From NCBI GenBank assembly GCA_005882895.1, contig VBBD01000009.1, forward strand, positions 71,648-105,720: a DNA stretch of 34,073 bases. The letters run 5' to 3'. Every line of letters begins with the position of its first letter. Within the stretch, counting starts at the first letter, position 1. The DNA is from Candidatus Bathyarchaeota archaeon (lineage in GTDB: Archaea; Thermoproteota; Bathyarchaeia; 40CM-2-53-6). The translations under genes were made by a program, and so were the position numbers. Positions 5,800 through 34,073 of this stretch are shown in pieces. Under the pieces are notes generated by a model that was given only the letters and a program-made list of their open reading frames with translations, was not told the origin of the DNA and ran no database searches.

Positions 5800-5871
5800 T
5801 GATTAGTCGTCACCTGTCAACCATGAGTTTGCGTGAAAACATTTTGCCAAAAAATATCTCGCAAGTAATGA

Positions 5872-5905
5872 ACTCGTGAAAAGTAATTAAGCTCTGAAAA
5901 CGAGT
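5872..5905 (+). promoter_or_regulatory. Promoter of the DUF1801 gene, TATA box framed by an inverted repeat
   Basis: A TATA-like TAATTAAG (5884-5891) lies about 27 bases before the ATG at 5914, which predicts a leaderless transcript. It is enclosed by exact arms ACTCGT (5872-5877) and ACGAGT (5900-5905), an arrangement that could let a dimeric regulator block the basal factors. Confidence 0.45.
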
Positions 5906-13880: not shown

Positions 13881-15149
13881 ATGCGCATTTTTGCCGACCT
13901 TCAAGTCCACAGCCGATACAGCCGAGCAACGAGCAAGAACATGAACCTGAAAGAGCTCGGCCGCTTCGCCGCAATGAAGGGATTGAACGTTGTCGGAACG
14001 GGCGATTTCACCCATCCTGATTGGAGGAAGGAGATTCGGAAGGATCTACAAGACTCTCGGGGTTCCGGACTTTACCGGCTCAAGGAGGGCGCCTTCCAAG
14101 TACAGTATATGATTACCGGAGAAGTCAATACCACCTTCCAATTCGGCGAGAAGTCGCGAAGAATACATCATTGCCTTCTCGCTCCTTCGATAGAGGCAGC
14201 GGATGCCGTAAGCGATCGATTGGCGAAGCACGGGAACATGCTGAACGACGGTCGGCCCACGCTCCGTGCGACCGCTCCAGAGCTCGTGGATGAGGTGCTC
14301 GAAGCCGACAGACAATGCGTAGTCTTTCCTGCGCACGCCTGGACCCCTTGGTTCAGCCTCTTCGGTGCAAACAGTGGGTTTGACACCTTCATTGATTGCT
14401 ATCAGGATAGATCTAATAGAATTTTTGCGCTCGAAACAGGCATGTCCTCAGATCCTCCCATGAACTGGCGGATATCACAACTCGATCGTCTCTGTCTCGT
14501 CTCAAATTCTGACGCGCACTCAGCGTGGCCGTGGCGATTAGGGAGAGAAGCAAACGTATTCGATCTAGACCATCTTACATATCACAATCTGGTTGGCGCG
14601 ATCAGAGACAAGGATCCTAGACGGTTCTTGTTCACCATAGAGACCTCACCTGCCTATGGCAAATACCACCGGACTGGACATCGTGAATGTGAAGTTTCAA
14701 TGCCCGCTAGGGACGCTCGCCACCTAGATGACAAGTGTCCCAAGTGCGGAAAGAAGATGACGCGGGGCGTCGAAGAACGTATAGAAGAACTTGCAGACCG
14801 ACCGGAAGGCTACGTCCCGGAGAATGCAATCGGGTACCGCCATTTGCTCCCGCTCTCCGAGATTATTGCTCCCGTGATTGGTGAGGTCGAACCCGGTTCA
14901 ACGAAAGTCTGGGACAAGTACAACATGCTTGTTGGAAAATTCGGGTCAGAATATTCCGTAATGCTAGACGCGCCTAAGGCCCAGCTGCTAGCGGCGGCAG
15001 GACCAGAGATCGCTAGAGCAATTCTTCGCGTGCGTAACGACGACGTTTTTGTCGAACCAGGCTACGACGGTGTCTACGGAAAACTTGATCTCAACAAGCC
15101 CCCTCCAATGAAGAACTCCGTCGCTTTAGGAATAGGACAGTTTGTCTAG
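13881..15149 (+). CDS. EndoQ-like PHP-domain DNA repair endonuclease
   Basis: Endonuclease Q nicks DNA 5' of deaminated bases (uracil, hypoxanthine) and abasic sites. The 422-residue length matches the family. The PHP metal motifs are present: DLQVHSRYSRATSKNMNL (His 10), GTGDFTHPDW (39-48), EVNTTF, HAWTPWFSLFG (152-162) and SNSDAHSAWPW (209-218). HSRYSRATS and HAWTPWF are typical of EndoQ rather than of PHP phosphatases or PolX. A Zn-finger-like insert has Cys 270, 286 and 289 (KCPKCGKKM). The C-terminal part ends VALGIGQFV. The start is ATG 13881. It converges with topoisomerase VI A with a CTAG overlap at the stops. The role follows from family resemblance; activity is not shown. Confidence 0.85.
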   Translation: MRIFADLQVHSRYSRATSKNMNLKELGRFAAMKGLNVVGTGDFTHPDWRKEIRKDLQDSRGSGLYRLKEGAFQVQYMITGEVNTTFQFGEKSRRIHHCLLAPSIEAADAVSDRLAKHGNMLNDGRPTLRATAPELVDEVLEADRQCVVFPAHAWTPWFSLFGANSGFDTFIDCYQDRSNRIFALETGMSSDPPMNWRISQLDRLCLVSNSDAHSAWPWRLGREANVFDLDHLTYHNLVGAIRDKDPRRFLFTIETSPAYGKYHRTGHRECEVSMPARDARHLDDKCPKCGKKMTRGVEERIEELADRPEGYVPENAIGYRHLLPLSEIIAPVIGEVEPGSTKVWDKYNMLVGKFGSEYSVMLDAPKAQLLAAAGPEIARAILRVRNDDVFVEPGYDGVYGKLDLNKPPPMKNSVALGIGQFV

Positions 15150-21903: not shown

Positions 21904-22360
21904 AATCCAGATTTCGGTTCTTGCGTCATATAGTTCCCCCTTCATCCTAATCTTCGCCCTTGGGATTAATCTTGCAATGCTCGACTTTGGCATTCAGACA
22001 GGCTTCACCAGGTTGTTAATGCTCAGTCTTTCGTTTCCCCTCGGATTCTTGGTAGGGCGCTTCATCTACTTCAGACTGAGCCACGTCGAAATTGTATACG
22101 ATGATCTGTCTTTTCAAGTTTTTAAAGGTCATAATCTGAAGATTTCAGGCAGCTGGAAGAACTATAGAGTCGTCTCTATAGCAGTTGACGGCTATGGGAG
22201 GGCAGATCTTAGACTTTACAATTCCGTTGGTGGGGAATTCGTGGAACTCCCTATCTCTAAGGTAGGAGTAGGCCCCCAAGCCTTTCGAGATCAAGTGAGG
22301 AAGATTCTATCGAGCTCGGGGAGTTCCTCGATTAACCTTCAAGTCGCTGAAGCCGCTTAA
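21887..22360 (+). CDS. Two-TM protein with a C-terminal beta-rich (PH-like) domain, second of the pair
   Basis: The 157 residues contain two membrane helices (about 12-35 and 40-62, the second ending LGFLVGRFIYF). A cytosolic beta-rich domain follows, with EIVYDDLSFQVFKGHNLKISGSW, YRVVSIAVDGYGRADLRLY and FVELPISKVGV. This looks like the bacterial/archaeal PH-like domains placed after two helices. No enzyme motif is present. The start ATG 21887 lies inside the upstream gene, giving a 17-base overlap. The 3' end overlaps the metallophosphoesterase on the opposite strand by 29 bases. A membrane platform for the upstream soluble protein is an inference from this tight coupling. Confidence 0.72.
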   Translation: MEKLTKIQISVLASYSSPFILIFALGINLAMLDFGIQTGFTRLLMLSLSFPLGFLVGRFIYFRLSHVEIVYDDLSFQVFKGHNLKISGSWKNYRVVSIAVDGYGRADLRLYNSVGGEFVELPISKVGVGPQAFRDQVRKILSSSGSSSINLQVAEAA

Positions 22361-23333
22361 CTTTCCCGTTCTCCAGCTCAATCATGTACGCCTTTAGAAT
22401 TCCTTCGGTATATTCGCTCCCCGGATTGATACATTGAGTTTTACCGATCTTGACGAGGCCAGGGCTCTCGTGTATGTGGCCATGAAGCCCCAGGAGGGGT
22501 TGATATTTCTCGATGACCTTTCGAACCGAGGTGGATCCTACCGGAATGAACGCTGGTCTCCCTCCTTCGTAGACCGGTCGGAGAGTCCCGTCAAGTTTCG
22601 GGGCCATGTCAATTGTAGAATTGTAAGGGGGGACGTGGAAGCAGAAGCATGATGTCTCGATGGATTTTAGTTGTGACACGGTCTTCTCTAGCTTCTCTAA
22701 GAGTTCGTCTTCGGTGCATTCGCGTGGGCTGTGCCACGGAGTTAGGTTTGACCAGCCAACGCATGCCGCCTCGTGGTGTTCATCGAAATGGACCACTGAC
22801 TCCTCTGCAAAAACTACGTTCGGAGAACTCCTTAGAACGTCGTCGAGAACGAACTTGTCGTCGTTCCCGGGGTGGATGATTACTTTTGAATCGGGGGCTT
22901 TTTTTGGGATGAGGGACAGCCAGTCTTTCACCATCTCTACTTCAAGGTCCTCGAAGACCTTCTCGACGTACTCCTGATCCTGGCTTAGCTTTTCGACTTC
23001 AGCCTTGGAGCAAACGTAGGGCAAGTAACAATGCTGTCGAATTTGCTTTTTGAGGTCGGGCAGGCCCTCTTCCGAGATCTTCATCTTTTTGCCTAGAAAG
23101 TTGGCGGTGTAACCTCCTTCAGGCTCACGTACGATGGGAACCATTACTTTACTGGTCATATCTCCTCCCATCAACAATACATTCGCGTTGAACATCGAGG
23201 CAGAGTTCAGGAATTTTCTCCAAACCACGTCGCTTCCGTGGAAGTCTGAGGAGAAGATTATTCTGGTCTTGAGCAAAGTTGAGAAAGGGAGAAACCCTAA
23301 TCTTTTAAATTCTCTAGGGTAGTTTGCGGGCAT
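22332..23333 (-). CDS. Calcineurin-like metallophosphoesterase
   Basis: This 333-residue protein has the five metal/phosphate blocks of the calcineurin-like superfamily in order: IIFSSDFHGS (Asp 30, His 32), LLMGGDMT (Asp 58), IHPGNDDKF (Asn and Asp), CFHVPPYNS and LLGLHGHIHESP (the GHxH block), followed by INPGSEY. A central helical insert (about 85-145) is larger than in the smallest members and may cap the active site. Members hydrolyse phosphomonoesters, diesters or nucleotides; the substrate here is unknown. The start is ATG 23333, but a later start near residue 19 would also keep the fold. The only near neighbour upstream is a divergent nucleotidyltransferase 78 bases away. Confidence 0.92.
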   Translation of the reverse strand: MPANYPREFKRLGFLPFSTLLKTRIIFSSDFHGSDVVWRKFLNSASMFNANVLLMGGDMTSKVMVPIVREPEGGYTANFLGKKMKISEEGLPDLKKQIRQHCYLPYVCSKAEVEKLSQDQEYVEKVFEDLEVEMVKDWLSLIPKKAPDSKVIIHPGNDDKFVLDDVLRSSPNVVFAEESVVHFDEHHEAACVGWSNLTPWHSPRECTEDELLEKLEKTVSQLKSIETSCFCFHVPPYNSTIDMAPKLDGTLRPVYEGGRPAFIPVGSTSVRKVIEKYQPLLGLHGHIHESPGLVKIGKTQCINPGSEYTEGILKAYMIELENGKVKRLQRLEG

Positions 23334-25942: not shown

Positions 25943-27013
25943 CTATTTCCCCGTTAGTTTTACCGTGCTAAGAATCTTGGCGACTGGGTCTTCCATCTTG
26001 GCTAGAAGTTTTTTCCCGCGTCTTTTCTGGGGTCCAAAGGCCTCCGGGTCGGTTAGCATTCTATGCACCTTAGATGCGATCTCACGGGGGGACTTAATTG
26101 TCTCGACTAGGCCTAGCCTCTCCAAATACTGGATGTAAAGGGGCTTAGGCCCTGGAAAGCAGGAAATTGATGGAATTCCCAAGAGCGCAGCCTCTACAGT
26201 CATGGTACCGCCCGATCCGACAAAGGCTGACGAATACGAAAGCAGACTAGTGGCATCGACTATCCTGTCAACTACAGTCACTTTTTCACCAAACCGCTTC
26301 CTTATCACCGGGGCTTGCATCCCGTACCTCGTCGATACGACTGCTTGGCATTCCAGTCCCCTCTTCAGCAGTTCATCGATGATTGGCGCCACGATTGGGT
26401 CCTTGTCGCTTGACTTCCCCATGAGATACGACGCGAATGCTTCCTCTGTTCGGAAAACAACAATCGGCCTATCCCTCTTCAAGTCCAATTGTCTTAGAAC
26501 GGTATCGCTCGGACGATGACGTTTGAGCCAAGCTGCTGGGTCCAACGCCCTGTAGAGAATGACCCTGCGTGAGGGTCCGCCGAACTCCTCCCAAACCGAT
26601 CGACCGATGATCCACGGACAACAAAGGAAAGTCGTCAGGGGTATCGTCAGTCGAGCTACCATCCAAGAGTGGGGCGAGTCATTAGCTGCAACATGAGGAA
26701 TACCCAAACCGAATGCGACCCGAGAAGCTTCGACTGATGAGAAGGAGACAGCCACGTTTGGCTTCCACTTCTGAATTAACTTCGCGAGTTTTGTAATTCT
26801 CTCAGCGCTCGCGAGGAGTTTTCCAAAAGCTGTTCCGCCGCCATGGCTTCCTACTACCGAAAATCGCAGTTTCTTCAACTTGAGAGTTTGTTCGGCCTCG
26901 CGGTAGACGCGCGTAGTGATCAACGCCTCATGTCCTTCCCGCCTCAGTGCGTGGTACAAAGGCTCGAAGAAGAGCGCCTGTTTCGGCGTTAGAACTTCAA
27001 TCCAGACTTTCAT
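25943..27013 (-). CDS. DUF354-family GT-B glycosyltransferase-like protein
   Basis: This 356-residue protein of the archaeal DUF354 family is related in fold to MurG and UDP-GlcNAc 2-epimerase. The N-terminal Rossmann half opens MKVWIEVLTPKQALFFEPLY and has HEALITTRVYREAEQTLK. The second half contains PIVVFRTEEAFASYL and the donor-site segment AFVGSGGTMTVEAALLGIPS followed by SCFPGPKPLYIQYLE. These are the family hallmarks. The exact sugar is unknown, but linkage with a nucleotide-sugar dehydrogenase suggests a hexuronic-acid or N-acetylhexosamine donor. No membrane helix or signal peptide; it acts at the cytosolic face. Start ATG 27013 with a TATA-like box 40-50 bases upstream. First gene of the minus-strand glycan operon. 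Confidence 0.88.
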   Translation of the reverse strand: MKVWIEVLTPKQALFFEPLYHALRREGHEALITTRVYREAEQTLKLKKLRFSVVGSHGGGTAFGKLLASAERITKLAKLIQKWKPNVAVSFSSVEASRVAFGLGIPHVAANDSPHSWMVARLTIPLTTFLCCPWIIGRSVWEEFGGPSRRVILYRALDPAAWLKRHRPSDTVLRQLDLKRDRPIVVFRTEEAFASYLMGKSSDKDPIVAPIIDELLKRGLECQAVVSTRYGMQAPVIRKRFGEKVTVVDRIVDATSLLSYSSAFVGSGGTMTVEAALLGIPSISCFPGPKPLYIQYLERLGLVETIKSPREIASKVHRMLTDPEAFGPQKRRGKKLLAKMEDPVAKILSTVKLTGK

Positions 27014-27243: not shown

Positions 27244-28572
27244 ATGGTGTTTCGAACGAGCAATCAATTTTCCGAATCCAAGATTGCTATCATAGGCAAC
27301 GAACCGGAAGCACTCCTGCTTTCAACCTTGTTTGCCGAGGCAGGCCATCCAAATTATCTCGTAGGGCGTTTTGATGAAGCCAAGACCAAAAGAACGGATA
27401 CCGGCGGGATAGGCGAAGCGAGATGGTTGCTAGGGGTTCACCGGAAAACAGGAACTACCACTCTCCTGTCAAGCGTGGAAGCCCTCTCTGCGAACCCACC
27501 CTCGATTATTGTCTTAACCGGGCACGCCGTGAGTCAAAGAGAGATTAGTGAGCTCGAAATAACTACTCGCGCCATTTGTAAGTTTATCTCTCGTGGGACA
27601 AGCCTCACTTTTACCGGGTTATGCCAACCGAACTTCACCGATACAACCCTTCGACAAACCATCGAGAAGCACAGCGGCTACGCTGTCGGCAGAGATGTCC
27701 AGTTAAGCTACGTGCCCTTGTTTTGGAGCGGGGAGACCCTTCAGAAATTCAGGGAGAAGCCGAAACTCATCGCAGGAATAGGGAAAGGAGCACTCTCGTT
27801 AGCTCAGGAGATTTTTCTTGCTGTATTCCCCTCCATCAGTACGAGTTCAAAACTTAGCGCCGCTGAGGCGGCCAGCCTGTTTGGGCCAATCTATAGAGAC
27901 GTGTTGCGAGCTTTGGAGTTCGAACTAGCAACCCTCTGCGAGACTGGTGATGTAGACTATTCTGAGGCTCTCGATCTCAGCAGGCAATCTGGAACTGACA
28001 ATCTGGGGATCCCCAGCACTTTTGTTGTCAGAGATGCAATTGCGAGCAACATCGCGATTGGCAGCTCGGGTAGCCGAGGAAACCTGAGCGTGGTTCGGGC
28101 AGCGCGTCGAATCAACGAGTCGGGTGAGCAAAGAGTTCTGGACTTGGTGAAGAGTGCATTGTCTCTTTGCGGAAAACGCTTTCGGCATTCTAGAATTGCA
28201 ATCTTGGGTTTCAGTGGGCTGGAGTCGCCCCGAGATTCGAAACCTAGTCCGCCACAAATTATTCGGACGCTTGAAAGGAGAGGTGCAATACTTTCAGTGT
28301 ACCCTGGGAGAGACAATCGATGGTTCGAAGCTGGCGTCCTAGGCGAGGGGGTTAGAGTTGAGAACTCGCCGTTGAGAGCTGCATCGAGGACGAGCTGCGC
28401 TCTAGTCGCTTTAGACAGGTCGGACTTTGCAGAGATAAGTTCGCAAAAGTTGGCTTCAGAGATGAGCCGTCCGGGGGCAGTATGCGATCTGTCAAGGGTT
28501 CTGGAAGCTTCAAATGTGGAGAGAGCGGGCCTCTTCTATACTTCTATTGGAAGAGGCAGTTCGAGGACTTGA
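27244..28572 (+). CDS. Catalytically dead paralogue of nucleotide-sugar dehydrogenase
   Basis: The 442 residues follow the whole length of the nucleotide-sugar dehydrogenase fold. An N-terminal Rossmann part is IAIIGNEPEALLLSTLFAEA, the central helices are LSAAEAASLFGPIYRDVLR and ALEFELATLCE, and the C-terminal domain is RIAILGFSGLESPRDSKPSP. Yet every catalytic feature is gone. The NAD glycine loop GxGxxG reads GNEPEA (18-23), the SPER glutamate motif reads YVPLFW, the active-site lysine of AAEAAK is Ser 211, and the GGHCxP nucleophile segment is absent. No frameshift or stop is present, so the fold has been kept while the activity was lost. It could be a regulatory or scaffold subunit. The gene is coupled by a TTGA overlap to the Gfo/Idh oxidoreductase downstream. 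Start ATG 27244. Confidence 0.75.
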   Translation: MVFRTSNQFSESKIAIIGNEPEALLLSTLFAEAGHPNYLVGRFDEAKTKRTDTGGIGEARWLLGVHRKTGTTTLLSSVEALSANPPSIIVLTGHAVSQREISELEITTRAICKFISRGTSLTFTGLCQPNFTDTTLRQTIEKHSGYAVGRDVQLSYVPLFWSGETLQKFREKPKLIAGIGKGALSLAQEIFLAVFPSISTSSKLSAAEAASLFGPIYRDVLRALEFELATLCETGDVDYSEALDLSRQSGTDNLGIPSTFVVRDAIASNIAIGSSGSRGNLSVVRAARRINESGEQRVLDLVKSALSLCGKRFRHSRIAILGFSGLESPRDSKPSPPQIIRTLERRGAILSVYPGRDNRWFEAGVLGEGVRVENSPLRAASRTSCALVALDRSDFAEISSQKLASEMSRPGAVCDLSRVLEASNVERAGLFYTSIGRGSSRT

Positions 28573-29535: not shown

Positions 29536-30468
29536 TTAGCCCTTTGACGTCATCGTCTTTGACGATTCCTCTAGTCCGAATACCAGTTTTGTCAATATCC
29601 CATTTACAGGGGTCTTGACCCCTGTCTTCTTTCCGTGGGAGATAATGGCGCCGTTTAGTTGCCTAATCTCAGTCATCCTGCCTCGTTCTATGTCTTGGAG
29701 CATCGAAGACTTGTTGGCTCTAGTTGACAACAAAATCTTCCACCATAGTTTTCTCGGATCTCCAACAAGTCTGATGCCTATTGCGTGGCTAACCGCTATC
29801 CCCTCGTTCATCGCGCTATGGGCGATCTCTCCGATCCCCCGGTTCCTGGCTAGTGCGCCATTGGGGAGTCTGGTCAAACTTGAAAGCGGGTTTATTGCTG
29901 CGTTGACTATGGCCTTTGCCCACAGAACTCCATGGATGTTGGAACTAGTCTTCGCCTTCAATCCTGCTGTATCGAACGCTATCTTGATGTGAGAGCATGT
30001 GTCCGAGTTTGCGCCTCGTGCGCTCCCAATGAGAGTCACTCCTCTTCCCGTATGCACCACGTAGCCTGGGCCCAATGATAAGGCCCCTTCGGTGGTCGAT
30101 GCTGCAAGAATCTCGTTCGTGAACGCAGATTGCAGGGTCTCAACATTGCTTAGACCGTTTTGAAGACTCACGACTGTCGTCTCGGGAGGTATCCTCCCAC
30201 GATAACTTGTTGCGACAGCTCTGGTATGGTGTGCTTTCACTGCAACAATGAGAACCTCTGTTCCAGGCAGCCTTGTCGGACCCTTTTGAACGGGCACACT
30301 AACTTTAGTGAGTGTTCCGTCGAGGTCTTGGAGCTTAATCCCATTCTTCCTGATCGCCTGGATGACAATAGGGTCCCGATGTACTAGGGTGACGTCGTGG
30401 CCTGCTATCCTCAATCTTGCGCCGAATAGACAACCAATGGCCCCTGCACCTACAATGCTGAAGCGCAA
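29536..30468 (-). CDS. panE: 2-dehydropantoate 2-reductase (ketopantoate reductase)
   Basis: This enzyme reduces ketopantoate to pantoate with NADPH (or NADH in some archaea). The 310 residues begin MRFSIVGAGAIGCLFGARL, the dinucleotide-binding fingerprint. LIVAVKAHHTRAVA carries the conserved Lys of the active site, and VSLQNGLSNVETLQ follows. The C-terminal helical domain has ILWAKAIVNAAINPLSSL-type text (here GVLWAKAIVNAAINPLSS) with the second catalytic Lys and Asn. The start is TTG 30468, 4 bases after the PanB stop, and it is the last gene of the four-gene pantothenate operon. It is tail to tail with the Gfo/Idh gene, 25 bases apart. Confidence 0.94.
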   Translation of the reverse strand: MRFSIVGAGAIGCLFGARLRIAGHDVTLVHRDPIVIQAIRKNGIKLQDLDGTLTKVSVPVQKGPTRLPGTEVLIVAVKAHHTRAVATSYRGRIPPETTVVSLQNGLSNVETLQSAFTNEILAASTTEGALSLGPGYVVHTGRGVTLIGSARGANSDTCSHIKIAFDTAGLKAKTSSNIHGVLWAKAIVNAAINPLSSLTRLPNGALARNRGIGEIAHSAMNEGIAVSHAIGIRLVGDPRKLWWKILLSTRANKSSMLQDIERGRMTEIRQLNGAIISHGKKTGVKTPVNGILTKLVFGLEESSKTMTSKG

Positions 30469-30472
30469 GTTT

Positions 30473-31354
30473 TCAAGACTTCTGGGGTAAATCGAGCTTG
30501 TTTCGTTCTGCGTCGTCGATTTTGAAGACGTGCTTCTCTTCCGGAAATGTGCCTCGACGGACCTCTGATGCGTATTCTCCGAGAGCTTCCCCTATCGTTG
30601 CCGCTAGGTTTGCGTATCGCTTTGCGAATTTTGGCACAAACCTAGGGTAGAGCCCGAGAATGTCGTGTAAGACTAGGACTTGACCATCACAGTATCTCCC
30701 CGAACCAATCCCAATGGTTGGGACGGAGACGGTTTGCGTGATGACCTTTGCCACTTCTTCTGTTATCATCTCAAGAACAATCCCGAACACTCCCGCGTCC
30801 TCTAGTAACTTAGCATCTTCAACGAGGCTTTTGCCGGAGTGGGCGTTCTTGCCCTGAATTCTATACCCTCCGTGGAGTGTTGCGGTTTGCGGTGTTAGCC
30901 CAATGTGTCCGAGGACTGGTATGCCAGCATTCGAAACGGCCTTTGCAATATGTGCCATTTCCCTTCCTCCCTCGACTTTGACAGCCTCCATTCTTCCTTC
31001 TTTGATGAAGCGTCCTGCGTTTCTTATGGCATCCTCTTCGGAGATCTGGAAGCTTAGGAACGGCATGTCGCCGATCAACAGTGAATGGCGCGCTCCTCTT
31101 TTGACCGCTTGGCAAACGGGAAGAAGCTCTTCTACCGTTACAGGAATTGTTGTGTCGTAACCCAGAACCACCATTCCGTAGGAGTCCCCGACGAGGATCG
31201 AGTCGACTCCGACGTCATCCGCGATAGTCGAAGTGGGGTAGTCATATGATGTTACCATCACGATTCGCTGACCCTGAGCCTTCATTTTCGAAAAGTCAGC
31301 AACCGTTACTTTCTTTCTTTCTTTGTTAGAATTCTCACTCAAGTCTAGGCCCAT
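30473..31354 (-). CDS. panB: 3-methyl-2-oxobutanoate hydroxymethyltransferase (ketopantoate hydroxymethyltransferase)
   Basis: This enzyme adds a hydroxymethyl group from methylene-tetrahydrofolate or the archaeal tetrahydromethanopterin analogue to 2-oxoisovalerate. The 293-residue TIM barrel has VTSYDYPTSTIADDVGVD, ILVGDSYGMVVLGYDTT (metal Asp), AVKVEGG, GHIGLTPQTATLHGGY and TIGIGSGRYCDGQVLVLHD. All are conserved active-site segments. The first 15-20 residues (GLDLSENSNKERKKV) are an extra polar N-terminus. Start ATG 31354, overlapping the upstream phosphopantothenate synthetase gene by 10 bases. Second to last in the pantothenate operon. Confidence 0.97.
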   Translation of the reverse strand: MGLDLSENSNKERKKVTVADFSKMKAQGQRIVMVTSYDYPTSTIADDVGVDSILVGDSYGMVVLGYDTTIPVTVEELLPVCQAVKRGARHSLLIGDMPFLSFQISEEDAIRNAGRFIKEGRMEAVKVEGGREMAHIAKAVSNAGIPVLGHIGLTPQTATLHGGYRIQGKNAHSGKSLVEDAKLLEDAGVFGIVLEMITEEVAKVITQTVSVPTIGIGSGRYCDGQVLVLHDILGLYPRFVPKFAKRYANLAATIGEALGEYASEVRRGTFPEEKHVFKIDDAERNKLDLPQKS

Positions 31355-32097
31355 CCTTGCATGTAGTGAATCATGTCTTTCATCGCTCTCGCAAGATTCT
31401 TCTCATTGTCAAAGCTCGAAGCTATGGCGCCTAATCGAGACCTCGAAAGAGGTTTCATTTTCTCAGTGATTCGGAGCAATTCCGGAATAGCTCTGATGAT
31501 GTTGTCAACAATAGTGACAGTGGCGGCCAGGGAGGTCCGCGACATTGGATTGAGGTCTATCGCAATCACTGCCTTTCCAGCCTTTCTAAGTGCTTCCGCC
31601 CGGTCACCATCTTCAAGCGGGATCAATACAACATCAGCGTTACCGATTCCCTGAGCATCGACGCTACGCCTTGGGCTGGCTACTCCTCGGATCCTAACCT
31701 TAGTCTTTGAGTCCACTCCAAGTACTCGATCTGCTCCGTTGCGCCTGAGCAAAGAAGCAATTCTTCTCTCTCGCGCGAAGCTTCTATGAAACAGATTTAC
31801 TTCAAGTTCAGCCGGAACCAAACGCGCAAGTTTCACAACCTCTCGGGCTACTAAAGCGGCAGTGTTCCCGTTGATGGATATAACCGGGCTTTTTGCTCCC
31901 AATAGGAGAGCGCTGGCAGCCTTGGTCGCGAGTCGAGAGGATTTCGGGGTGACCTCACCGAGCATGTAATCGAATGCCTCTCCACGACCCTGGGCAATCA
32001 AGCCCTGAGAAGCTACGATTCCGCTTTGAAATCCTTGGACAAGTCGTTCTCTGGTCTCGAGGGATCTAAAACGTGGATGGTTAGGTGATATTTTCAA
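31345..32097 (-). CDS. 4-phosphopantoate--beta-alanine ligase (phosphopantothenate synthetase)
   Basis: This archaea-specific enzyme (DUF137 family) joins 4-phosphopantoate and beta-alanine with ATP to give 4'-phosphopantothenate, replacing bacterial PanC and CoaA. The 250 residues match the family length. Recognisable pieces are HPRFRSLETRERLVQGF, VASQGLIAQGRGEAFDYMLG, VISINGNTAALVAREVV (nucleotide-binding loop), ELEVNLFHRSFARE and AIDLNPMSRTSLAATVTIVD, which lines the active site. The start TTG 32097 overlaps the pantoate kinase stop as TTGA. It needs the kinase product as substrate, and the two genes are coupled, as usual in archaea. Confidence 0.96.
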   Translation of the reverse strand: MKISPNHPRFRSLETRERLVQGFQSGIVASQGLIAQGRGEAFDYMLGEVTPKSSRLATKAASALLLGAKSPVISINGNTAALVAREVVKLARLVPAELEVNLFHRSFARERRIASLLRRNGADRVLGVDSKTKVRIRGVASPRRSVDAQGIGNADVVLIPLEDGDRAEALRKAGKAVIAIDLNPMSRTSLAATVTIVDNIIRAIPELLRITEKMKPLSRSRLGAIASSFDNEKNLARAMKDMIHYMQGWA

Positions 32098-33005
32098 ATC
32101 ACTGCGGCTCCATGTCCAGAGATCTTGCTAACCACTGGAATGAGACCAGCTGATCTGATGGTCGCCTTCGCTTTAGGGACGAGATCTCTGCCAACTACCG
32201 TGAAGAGTGATTCCCCAATCATCATCATACTGGACAGTATCTGTCCCCTTTGCATGCTTGCTATTGCTTCCCGCAGTCGCGGGGAGAATATTCCTAGGCA
32301 ATCTGCAAACCTTCGCGATAATCTGATGAAAGTATTGGTCTCAGGACTCTTAACCTGAAGAGAGACTAGTTCTCGTCCGCATAGGTTAATTCGCTTTATC
32401 AAACCGCTGTTTGTCAGAACGCCCGCAGTTGATATCGGTCCGAACGCGCCTGAAACGACTCTCAGCGAGGACGAGGGGATGACCTTCTTGACTTCTCCGA
32501 TTCCAGGAGCTCCGGCACGGGTCCGTATTACAAGTCCTCCATAGAATGCAGAAGTCACTGTTCCGAGACCGGTCTTGTACTTCACCTCCACCTTATGAGC
32601 GATCTGCGCGGCCTCAATCTCGCTGAGGTAGGAACCCAGCGCTTGATTAAGCGCTAGAGAGAGGCTTAACGCTCCCGCGCCGCTGGTCCCGTAGCCGCAG
32701 CCCATTGGGAGGATCCCTTTGTGAAGGACGTTAACCCGCAAGGTTTCGGAGGATCTTTCTAGATGCTCTTGAACAACTGCTCTCGATACCACTGGATGTG
32801 CAAGCGGCTTTCCATTAAATGAGATAGCAAGTTTCGCTCGCGAAGCTCGGCTGATCCTTACTGAAGTCGTTACTCCTTGCTGAAGATTCACTCCGGCCCC
32901 TGTAGATCCGATCTTCAACGGATCCCTCGGGGTATCATGTATGCTAAAGAAGCCAGTAATCTGACAGGGCGAAAATGACAATCCGGTCTTGACCGTGAGG
33001 ATCAC
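32094..33005 (-). CDS. Pantoate kinase (GHMP family)
   Basis: This is the first enzyme of the archaeal CoA branch that phosphorylates pantoate with ATP. The 303 residues carry the GHMP features in the archaeal pantoate kinase form: FSPCQITGFFSIHD at the N-terminus, GSTGAGVNLQQGVTT, the ATP loop PMGCGYGTSGAGALSLSLAL (P-x-G-x-G-x-x-S/T-G-A-x-A-x-S) and the third motif near KISGHGAAVI at the end. Start GTG 33005. It heads the operon: pantoate kinase, phosphopantothenate synthetase, PanB, PanE. Together they convert 2-oxoisovalerate and beta-alanine to 4'-phosphopantothenate. The later CoaBC and CoaD steps are not in this window. Confidence 0.96.
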   Translation of the reverse strand: MILTVKTGLSFSPCQITGFFSIHDTPRDPLKIGSTGAGVNLQQGVTTSVRISRASRAKLAISFNGKPLAHPVVSRAVVQEHLERSSETLRVNVLHKGILPMGCGYGTSGAGALSLSLALNQALGSYLSEIEAAQIAHKVEVKYKTGLGTVTSAFYGGLVIRTRAGAPGIGEVKKVIPSSSLRVVSGAFGPISTAGVLTNSGLIKRINLCGRELVSLQVKSPETNTFIRLSRRFADCLGIFSPRLREAIASMQRGQILSSMMMIGESLFTVVGRDLVPKAKATIRSAGLIPVVSKISGHGAAVI

Positions 33006-33128: not shown

Positions 33129-34073
33129 TTGAGAGGCTTGATACTTGCGGGAGGCTTCGCAACAAGACTGCGACCCCTCAGCTGCTCCAAGCCGAAGTTG
33201 TTATTTCCCATAGTTGGCATGCCGCTCGTTGAGTCCATGGCTCGATGGCTCAGCTCGGGCGGAGTTGACCGGGTAATCCTAGCTGTCAATCATCTTTCAG
33301 ATAAATTGAAGATCGAAGTAGGTCACCGTGTAGCTGGAGTGACGATCGAGTTTTCCGTAGAAGAGACCCCTTTGGGAACTGCGGGTCCGGTTCGGCTTGC
33401 GTCCAATCTTCTGAGTGGGGATGACCCATTCTTCGTGACAAATGGTGACATTGTAAGCAATATCGACATTAGACGTATGCTGGTAATGCACCAAGAGACC
33501 AAGGCAGATGCAACAATTGCCTTGGTCTCCGTTCGCGACCCTTCCCCATATGGCTCAGTCTTGACCGACTCTAACGGAACGGTGAAAAAGTTCGAGGAAA
33601 AACCGGCGGCTCACTCCGCTGCGAGTCATGTAAACGCAGGAGTGTACGTGCTCAGTCCTAAGGTAGTGGATTCCATTCCAGAAGGCCGACCCGCCAGTCT
33701 GGAGAAAGAGGTTTTCCCTAAATTAGTTCGGAATGGGAGGATGCGGGGATGGATGCACAACGGATTCTGGTACGACATCGGGCGGGTTTCGGAATATGTG
33801 CGGGCCAACCGAGAACTCTTGGAGAAGCAAGAGCCTAAGGCCGCAGTCCCCAATGCTACCAAGAACGGATGGGAGATCTTAAGGCCCTCGTTTTTGGGTA
33901 CTCAGACCCGTTTGGGAGTGGGCGCGAAAGTGGGCCCTCTTTCGATTCTCAGCGAGAACGTGAGTGTTGGAGATGAAGCAATTGTCCGGAATTCAATAAT
34001 ATTTGAAGAAACATCCATTGGCGAGAAAGCGATTGTCGAAGGCTCGGTCATTGGCGAAAGAGTGGTTATCGGT
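33129..34073 (+). CDS. Sugar-1-phosphate nucleotidyltransferase with hexapeptide-repeat tail (3' end cut by window edge)
   Basis: This enzyme makes NDP-sugars such as GDP-mannose, UDP-GlcNAc or dTDP-glucose. TTG 33129, directly after a TAG in frame, gives MRGLILAGGFATRLRPLS, the exact N-terminal signature of the family. KPKLLFPIVGMPLVE and FFVTNGDIVSNID (metal Asp) follow, then KKFEEKPAA, VNAGVYVLS and HNGFWYDIGRVSEY. After about residue 250 the text changes to left-handed beta-helix repeats (VGAKVGPLSIL, VGDEAIVRNSIIF, IGEKAIVEGSVIG), which continue past the edge. 315 codons are visible. This two-domain layout is usual for archaeal mannose-1-phosphate guanylyltransferase and glucose-1-phosphate thymidylyltransferase-like enzymes. 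It likely feeds the glycan genes at 24.5-29.5 kb. Confidence 0.92.
   Translation, partial: MRGLILAGGFATRLRPLSCSKPKLLFPIVGMPLVESMARWLSSGGVDRVILAVNHLSDKLKIEVGHRVAGVTIEFSVEETPLGTAGPVRLASNLLSGDDPFFVTNGDIVSNIDIRRMLVMHQETKADATIALVSVRDPSPYGSVLTDSNGTVKKFEEKPAAHSAASHVNAGVYVLSPKVVDSIPEGRPASLEKEVFPKLVRNGRMRGWMHNGFWYDIGRVSEYVRANRELLEKQEPKAAVPNATKNGWEILRPSFLGTQTRLGVGAKVGPLSILSENVSVGDEAIVRNSIIFEETSIGEKAIVEGSVIGERVVIG

Follow-up and report, generated by a model that had tools for sequence, protein, structure and literature searches.

A probable nucleotide-sugar-dehydrogenase pseudoenzyme from a bathyarchaeal genome, possibly a non-catalytic subunit of its Gfo/Idh neighbor

P0001, a dead nucleotide-sugar-dehydrogenase (UGDH)-like protein encoded at 27244..28572 (+) of a 34,073-nucleotide stretch of Candidatus Bathyarchaeota DNA (the window), is by its sequence a pseudoenzyme, being an enzyme homolog without catalytic motifs whose frame is kept by selection. 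Loss of the catalytic residues, a predicted UGDH fold, purifying selection, pairing with a downstream gene for a Gfo/Idh oxidoreductase, a possible stop/start overlap between the two genes, and intact motifs in the partner were observed, and we tentatively read P0001 as a non-catalytic subunit of that coupled enzyme. The strongest support for this reading is the recurrence of the pair with its possible overlap and the intact motifs of the partner.

The open frame of P0001 runs for 442 amino acids, and alignment with P0002, the intact paralog in the same window, confirmed the first-pass annotation, which had described a full-length fold that lacked the NAD loop, the glutamate motif, and the GGHCxP nucleophile and carried no stop or frameshift. 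All of the losses lie on the forward strand. GNEPEA (residues 18 to 23; 27295..27312) stands in place of the GLGYVG (GxGxxG) NAD loop, YVPLFW (residues 156 to 161; 27709..27726) replaces YSPER with loss of its Glu, and FVVRDAIA (residues 260 to 267; 28021..28044) replaces GVGGHCIP, including the nucleophilic Cys. TKMLEN has become ASLFGP, so that the Lys position is Ser211 (27874..27876) and the Asn four residues further on is also lost, and the Asp of the KDP motif is gone. Hence, all five of the residues that we take to be catalytic in UGDH (Glu, Lys, Asn, Cys, and Asp) are missing. Each of the five was likewise kept in none of the 20 rows of the P0001 clade (one row has an X at the Glu), and the second and third Gly of GxGxxG were kept in 0/20, with four rows gapped there. 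The previously claimed replacement of the catalytic Lys by Ser211 holds for P0001 itself, not for its clade, most orthologs having Gly at this position. No displaced active site was seen by eye in an alignment of 14 orthologs. Judged from these sequences, P0001 would be without catalytic activity.

Family models recognize P0001 below their thresholds. TIGR03026 gave 73.7 bits against a cut-off of 189.8, Pfam matched the C-terminal domain alone (19.6 bits against a threshold of 30), and every curated cut-off listed exceeds the score of P0001; the TIGR03026 E-value of 1.2e-20 nevertheless places the likeness to UGDH beyond chance. An AlphaFold2 model built from 22 aligned sequences contained all three UGDH domains (pLDDT 80.6, pTM 0.77), although this alignment includes intact paralogs that may pull the model toward their fold; it was used instead of a model from 13 rows only, which reached a pLDDT of 59.5. 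When the 22-row model was searched with Foldseek, nucleotide-sugar dehydrogenases made up the best 50 matches listed throughout (TM 0.60 to 0.76 by query length), including 4r16 (0.72), 4xr9 (0.72 to 0.73), and human 2q3e (0.73 to 0.74). Among the matches listed, the first by E-value was 3g79 (TM 0.60). They also included 3khu, by its title presumably the human Glu161Gln entry with a thiohemiacetal intermediate. The three-domain UGDH fold is thus predicted to be retained.

Orthologs of P0001 were found in 16 of 17 genomes of the same genus at 42 to 95% identity, the exception being one genome that is 77% complete (G001), and in one of the three other genomes of the family (G018, not G019 or G020). 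All of these orthologs share the losses of P0001. Among the 20 copies in the clade, 14 were full length and open, four were cut by contig ends, and two (G008 and G012) were broken at ambiguous bases. Pairwise Nei-Gojobori dN/dS across 10 sequences of the clade, one of them a 350-residue piece, had a median of 0.094 (range 0.060 to 0.174; all 45 pairs below 0.18), with absolute values being rough because synonymous distances are about 1. Medians for the other genes were 0.074 for P0002 (36 pairs), 0.055 for the Gfo/Idh gene (45 pairs), 0.072 for the DUF354 neighbor (36 of 45 pairs defined), and 0.184 for the ketopantoate-reductase neighbor (45 pairs), and the second clade gave 0.109 (six pairs). 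The earlier proposal of a pseudoenzyme under selection is therefore supported, both by orthologs with the same losses and by dN/dS, and apart from the two breaks at ambiguous bases there were no stops or frameshifts of the kind expected under relaxed selection. A frameshifted or decaying gene was ruled out on the same grounds, namely the median dN/dS and the full-length, open copies. The genome bin of the window also holds two more copies of the locus at contig ends (L038, G000:C13:1-8000; L039, G000:C71:1-8000), 82% and 76% identical to P0001, which related strains present in the bin probably contributed.

The gene downstream of P0001 encodes P0003 (28569..29510, +), a UDP-GlcNAc 3-dehydrogenase-like member of the Gfo/Idh/MocA oxidoreductases by its PF01408 score (104 bits against 24) and its EKP motif (LLVEKPMT). 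Against the UDP-GlcNAc 3-dehydrogenase model NF040723 it scored 308.5 bits, below the 450 cut-off. The listed open reading frame begins at 28482, and family matches start only at about residue 34. This listed start is probably not that of P0003 itself, because the four nucleotides TTGA at 28569..28572 (+) hold both the stop codon of P0001 and a probable Gfo/Idh start. The same offset recurs widely, a four-nucleotide start/stop overlap (ATGA, GTGA, or TTGA) being possible in 58 of 75 distinct UGDH-like/gfo pairs (57/76 under another choice of start), comprising 19/19 in the family of the window and 39/56 outside it. In 29 pairs the overlap start was the sole candidate among 13 codons scanned. 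For comparison, of 585 other gene ends in the same loci, 127 have the letters required; allowing for frame, which fits in one case of three, roughly 7% would be expected to overlap by chance. The 75 distinct coupled Gfo/Idh genes have intact motifs, with GxGxWG in 75 (GxGFWG in 71), EKP in 74 (one row gapped), and DxAIH in 75. In one of them, at locus L178, Met replaces the Lys that precedes DxAIH.

To place P0001 among its relatives, a profile was built from SPIR-type rows of the same order (below) and three class-level rows; of the 163 genomes of the class that are at least 85% complete, 149 gave a match at E ≤ 1e-20, canonical enzymes included. A further 92 stretches were added and 146 UGDH-like rows of at least 280 residues aligned; since loci were chosen by hand, the row counts that follow are not unbiased frequencies. 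A UGDH-like gene lay directly 5' of an intact Gfo/Idh gene in 9 of the 21 sampled families of the class, with no coupled row among those sampled from the other 12, and the coupling was also found in some other families of the phylum. In the 75 UGDH-like rows directly upstream of gfo, Glu was kept in 0, Cys in 8, Lys in 17, Asn in 18, and Asp in 14; 52 rows kept none of the five residues and none kept more than three. Gaps or X were scored here as not kept (Glu 1, Lys 0, Asn 0, Cys 48, Asp 19), those in the Cys column being mostly deletions inside the GGHC loop, not truncated rows, and alignment-dependent. The 71 UGDH-like rows that do not adjoin gfo include 22 with all five residues. SPIR-type rows (n = 26, with L166_7737 a divergent outlier) keep Cys and mostly Lys and have Ile, Leu, or Val for the Glu of SPER; examples are L041 to L050 and L053 to L058 of the same order and L176 to L180 of other families of the phylum. 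Possibly, these are enzymes whose thioester hydrolysis is altered. In other families of the order of the window, Lys and Cys are present in all 16 UGDH-like rows, of which 15 lie beside DUF354 and four are followed by gfo; these rows have SPIR or SPLR for SPER, retain the NAD loop, and have lost Asn and Asp. Beyond the class, families f45, f50, f56, and f59 carry the pair with Cys and Lys kept, and f31 carries it without Cys. In a quick tree of 58 rows, the Cys state changed at least three times and the Lys state six times, counts that do not distinguish gain from loss. Canonical, SPIR-type, Cys-less, and fully dead proteins coexist, and most of the Cys-less and fully dead ones share a small set of neighboring genes. 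At L162:8384-10366 (genome G038), an open frame of 661 residues includes a SPIR-type UGDH-like domain and exceeds the other aligned rows in length.

In the window, the order is DUF354 (25943..27013, on the reverse strand and so divergent; PF04007, 171 bits), P0001, and Gfo/Idh, the DUF354 gene being part of a syntenic block. Genes near the group in relatives, with one representative examined per cluster, encode archaeal GlmM (phosphoglucosamine mutase; 537 bits against a cut-off of 439), a sugar-1-phosphate nucleotidyltransferase, a GT4 protein (PF00953, with MraY types as the best NCBIfam matches, below cut-off), and DUF354. When the three or four genes closest to each Cys-less protein were considered, at least one of GlmM, nucleotidyltransferase, GT4, DUF354, and Gfo was present for 61 of 63 such proteins outside the family of the window and for 20/20 in the P0001 clade, there mainly Gfo (19) and DUF354 (16). 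By their sequences, these neighbors would serve UDP-GlcNAc synthesis and the priming of lipid-linked glycans. A 3-keto sugar would need a DegT-type aminotransferase. A search of 38 genomes of the order detected such enzymes in 36, and by the positions listed none adjoins a UGDH-like/gfo pair. In the genus, DegT instead lies beside a different Gfo/Idh gene (G000:C83:42174-43220 beside 43282-44187, the latter product being about 29% identical to P0003), which weakens the idea that P0003 feeds an aminotransferase. This arrangement recurs in other genomes of the genus. Elsewhere in the window, 29536-33005 (-) holds genes of pantothenate/coenzyme A type (ketopantoate reductase, ketopantoate hydroxymethyltransferase, phosphopantothenate synthetase, and a GHMP kinase), and 33129-34073 (+) a hexapeptide-repeat nucleotidyltransferase gene, truncated at the window end, that resembles a gene near the pair in other families. 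Frames at 13881-15149 (+; 422 residues) and 22332-23333 (-; 333 residues) had no Pfam match at the thresholds used. One short tandem repeat was seen in the window (5863-5900), and no tRNA was found in it.

P0002 (24576..25934, -) is a canonical nucleotide-sugar dehydrogenase with every canonical motif and an intact active site, and exceeds the TIGR03026 cut-off with 407.5 bits. Its group in the UGDH-like tree holds only f1 rows, so it was probably gained in the family. The UGDH-like sequence trees do not settle the origin of the P0001 clade, which sits on a long branch. When constrained trees were compared with the free 58-row quick tree, none of three placements was rejected, whether with ten SPIR-type proteins of the same order (logL +12.97, p-AU 0.783), ten canonical proteins (logL +3.42, p-AU 0.554), or three P0002-type proteins (logL -7.78, p-AU 0.352). 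Synteny and the Gfo tree are better evidence than these trees, and on that evidence P0001 probably arose from the SPIR-type protein of its order. In the Gfo tree, the Gfo of the window's family groups with its f2 and f5 counterparts from the same order (SH-aLRT 89); the f3 Gfo of that order (L057) falls outside the f1-f2-f5 group, with f31.

For P0001 as a subunit of P0003, we propose that the ancestor was probably a UDP-HexNAc 6-dehydrogenase beside a 3-dehydrogenase-like enzyme, like bacterial WbpA and WbpB, and that its C6-oxidizing residues would have been lost in several lineages while the fold was retained. Most likely, P0001 would then stabilize or activate the intact Gfo/Idh product of the overlapping gene that follows, or supply it with substrate. 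For such a subunit, we infer co-translation, a physical complex, a substrate, and a direction of regulation. The first-pass annotation had also named a partner of the coupled oxidoreductase among the possible roles, and the recurring overlap and intact Gfo/Idh motifs bear this out in part. Several results count against it. A mirror-tree comparison of pairwise distances over 41 loci showed no more co-evolution between the dead protein and Gfo than shared descent would give (partial correlation -0.10 given GlmM). A search of 31 genomes gave no Gfo match at E ≤ 1e-40 in seven that encode a Cys-less protein (G045, G062, G063, G070, G071, G073, and G153). Four others (G061, G065, G067, and G169) had distant Gfo matches only, at 178 to 214 bits compared with 557 to 593 for six coupled genomes. 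Single absences weigh little because some of these genomes are 85 to 92% complete. The lack of coupled rows among those sampled from 12 of the 21 families, the faster evolution of the dead proteins than of Gfo, and the position of the f3 Gfo outside the f1-f2-f5 group also speak against the subunit reading.

In lineages without a Gfo match the role must involve other partners, and the main rival is therefore that P0001 serves the glycan-priming cluster as a whole (GlmM, nucleotidyltransferase, GT4, and DUF354), as its scaffold or as a sensor of UDP-GlcNAc, and not the Gfo/Idh enzyme in particular. In family f21, Cys-less proteins adjoin the GT4 gene, and five of the seven genomes examined there had no Gfo match at E ≤ 1e-40 and the other two distant ones only. 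Distances between dead proteins correlate with those of GlmM (0.93), which may reflect species descent only, and no recurring link is tighter than the one to gfo through the possible stop/start overlap. Conservation of the C-terminal end G436-R437-G438 favors this rival; a C-terminal Lys and Arg, presumably nucleotide contacts, are kept in only 8/75 and 16/75 coupled rows, which speaks against it. We consider this scaffold or sensor role unlikely, if a serious contender. For the lipid-binding scaffold that the first-pass annotation had suggested, nothing observed spoke either for or against. It appears even less probable that P0001 is an enzyme whose active site has moved, or arisen anew, on the same fold. 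The candidate residues for such a site are conserved in the dead clades and all lie on the forward strand: Cys309 (28168..28170) in 20/20 of the P0001 clade, 38/48 and 11/15 of two other Cys-less groups, 11/26 SPIR-type rows, and 0/37 canonical rows (seven gaps); Arg314 (28183..28185) in 19/20 (one gap), 40/48 and 11/15, 4/26, and 5/37, respectively; and Cys385 (28396..28398) in 18/20 (two gaps), 47/48 (one gap) and 15/15, 25/26, and 10/37. From the secondary structure of the model, Cys309 and Arg314 would lie near a domain joint. Migrated catalytic residues are described for some pseudoenzymes (PMC10211241). Nevertheless, the P0001 clade lacks the NAD loop, and of the 34 positions that the dead f1 proteins share with other dead coupled groups, most have a predominant residue that also predominates in canonical enzymes and are therefore read as fold, not as a new site.

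Regulation of the intact paralog through mixed oligomers, also suggested earlier, was not borne out as a general role and, although conceivable within the clade of the window, is very unlikely for P0001. P0001 and P0002 share one locus in the clade of the window wherever the flank is covered, and central-helix residues that could serve an oligomer interface (Glu208, Ala223, Leu224, Glu227, and Ala229) are kept; however, the two proteins are only 22% identical over 355 columns, and P0002 was not adjacent in four loci of the second clade with the flank covered (L031, L033, L034, and L037). An active paralog moreover does not occur wherever the dead protein does. In six genomes at least 90% complete (G047, G057, G128, G153, G161, and G166), the Cys-less protein was the single TIGR03026 match at E ≤ 1e-6 and thus the only UGDH detected, with at most ten candidates per genome scored, which excludes paralog regulation as the general role. 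Least credible of all, to the point of being highly improbable, is that P0001 is a decaying remnant or is kept only since translation of the upstream frame starts gfo. The recurring possible overlap would fit the latter, and sequence change is fast in the long run, with dead proteins diverging at roughly twice the rate of Gfo (median distances of 1.14 and 0.53). Yet the low dN/dS in all 45 pairs, the many invariant columns among orthologs as little as 42% and up to 95% identical to P0001, and the 14 full-length, open copies out of 20, with the rest explained by contig ends or ambiguous bases, speak against both.

Compared with known systems, P0001 resembles archaeal UDP-N-acetyl-D-mannosamine dehydrogenase and other nucleotide sugar dehydrogenases (TIGR03026, NF040825; PDB 4r16, 3g79) in its predicted full-length three-domain fold and detectable homology, and differs from them in the lost NAD loop, Glu, Lys, Asn, Cys, and Asp and in scoring below the cut-offs. 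WbpA has the UGDH fold and WbpB is a Gfo/Idh protein. In synthesis of UDP-ManNAc3NAcA, WbpA and then WbpB act on UDP-GlcNAc as 6-dehydrogenase and 3-dehydrogenase (PMC10622841); in the P0001-P0003 pair, by contrast, the 6-dehydrogenase member lacks catalytic residues. Trypanosome prozymes are reportedly catalytically dead paralogs that activate AdoMetDC and deoxyhypusine synthase (PMC5201418, PMC3663545). As a dead enzyme proposed to be kept as a partner, P0001 is like them; unlike theirs, its proposed partner comes from another enzyme family, and activation is hypothetical. Extended to the widespread archaeal family of dead UGDH proteins, the idea is that they act as prozymes across enzyme families. 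Each would be translated together with a Gfo/Idh UDP-GlcNAc dehydrogenase and serve as its non-catalytic subunit, one member of a former two-enzyme channel having become a regulator of the other or a carrier of its substrate; we regard this broader proposal as doubtful, though worth stating.

Pseudoenzymes as a kind are already known, and the open-licence literature, to which the search was confined, yielded no description of one derived from a nucleotide-sugar dehydrogenase. Annotation pipelines may label such dead proteins UDP-sugar dehydrogenases, and the finding bears on the little-known surface glycans of these archaea. Because graded states survive side by side, the route from enzyme to non-catalytic subunit is experimentally testable in this family.
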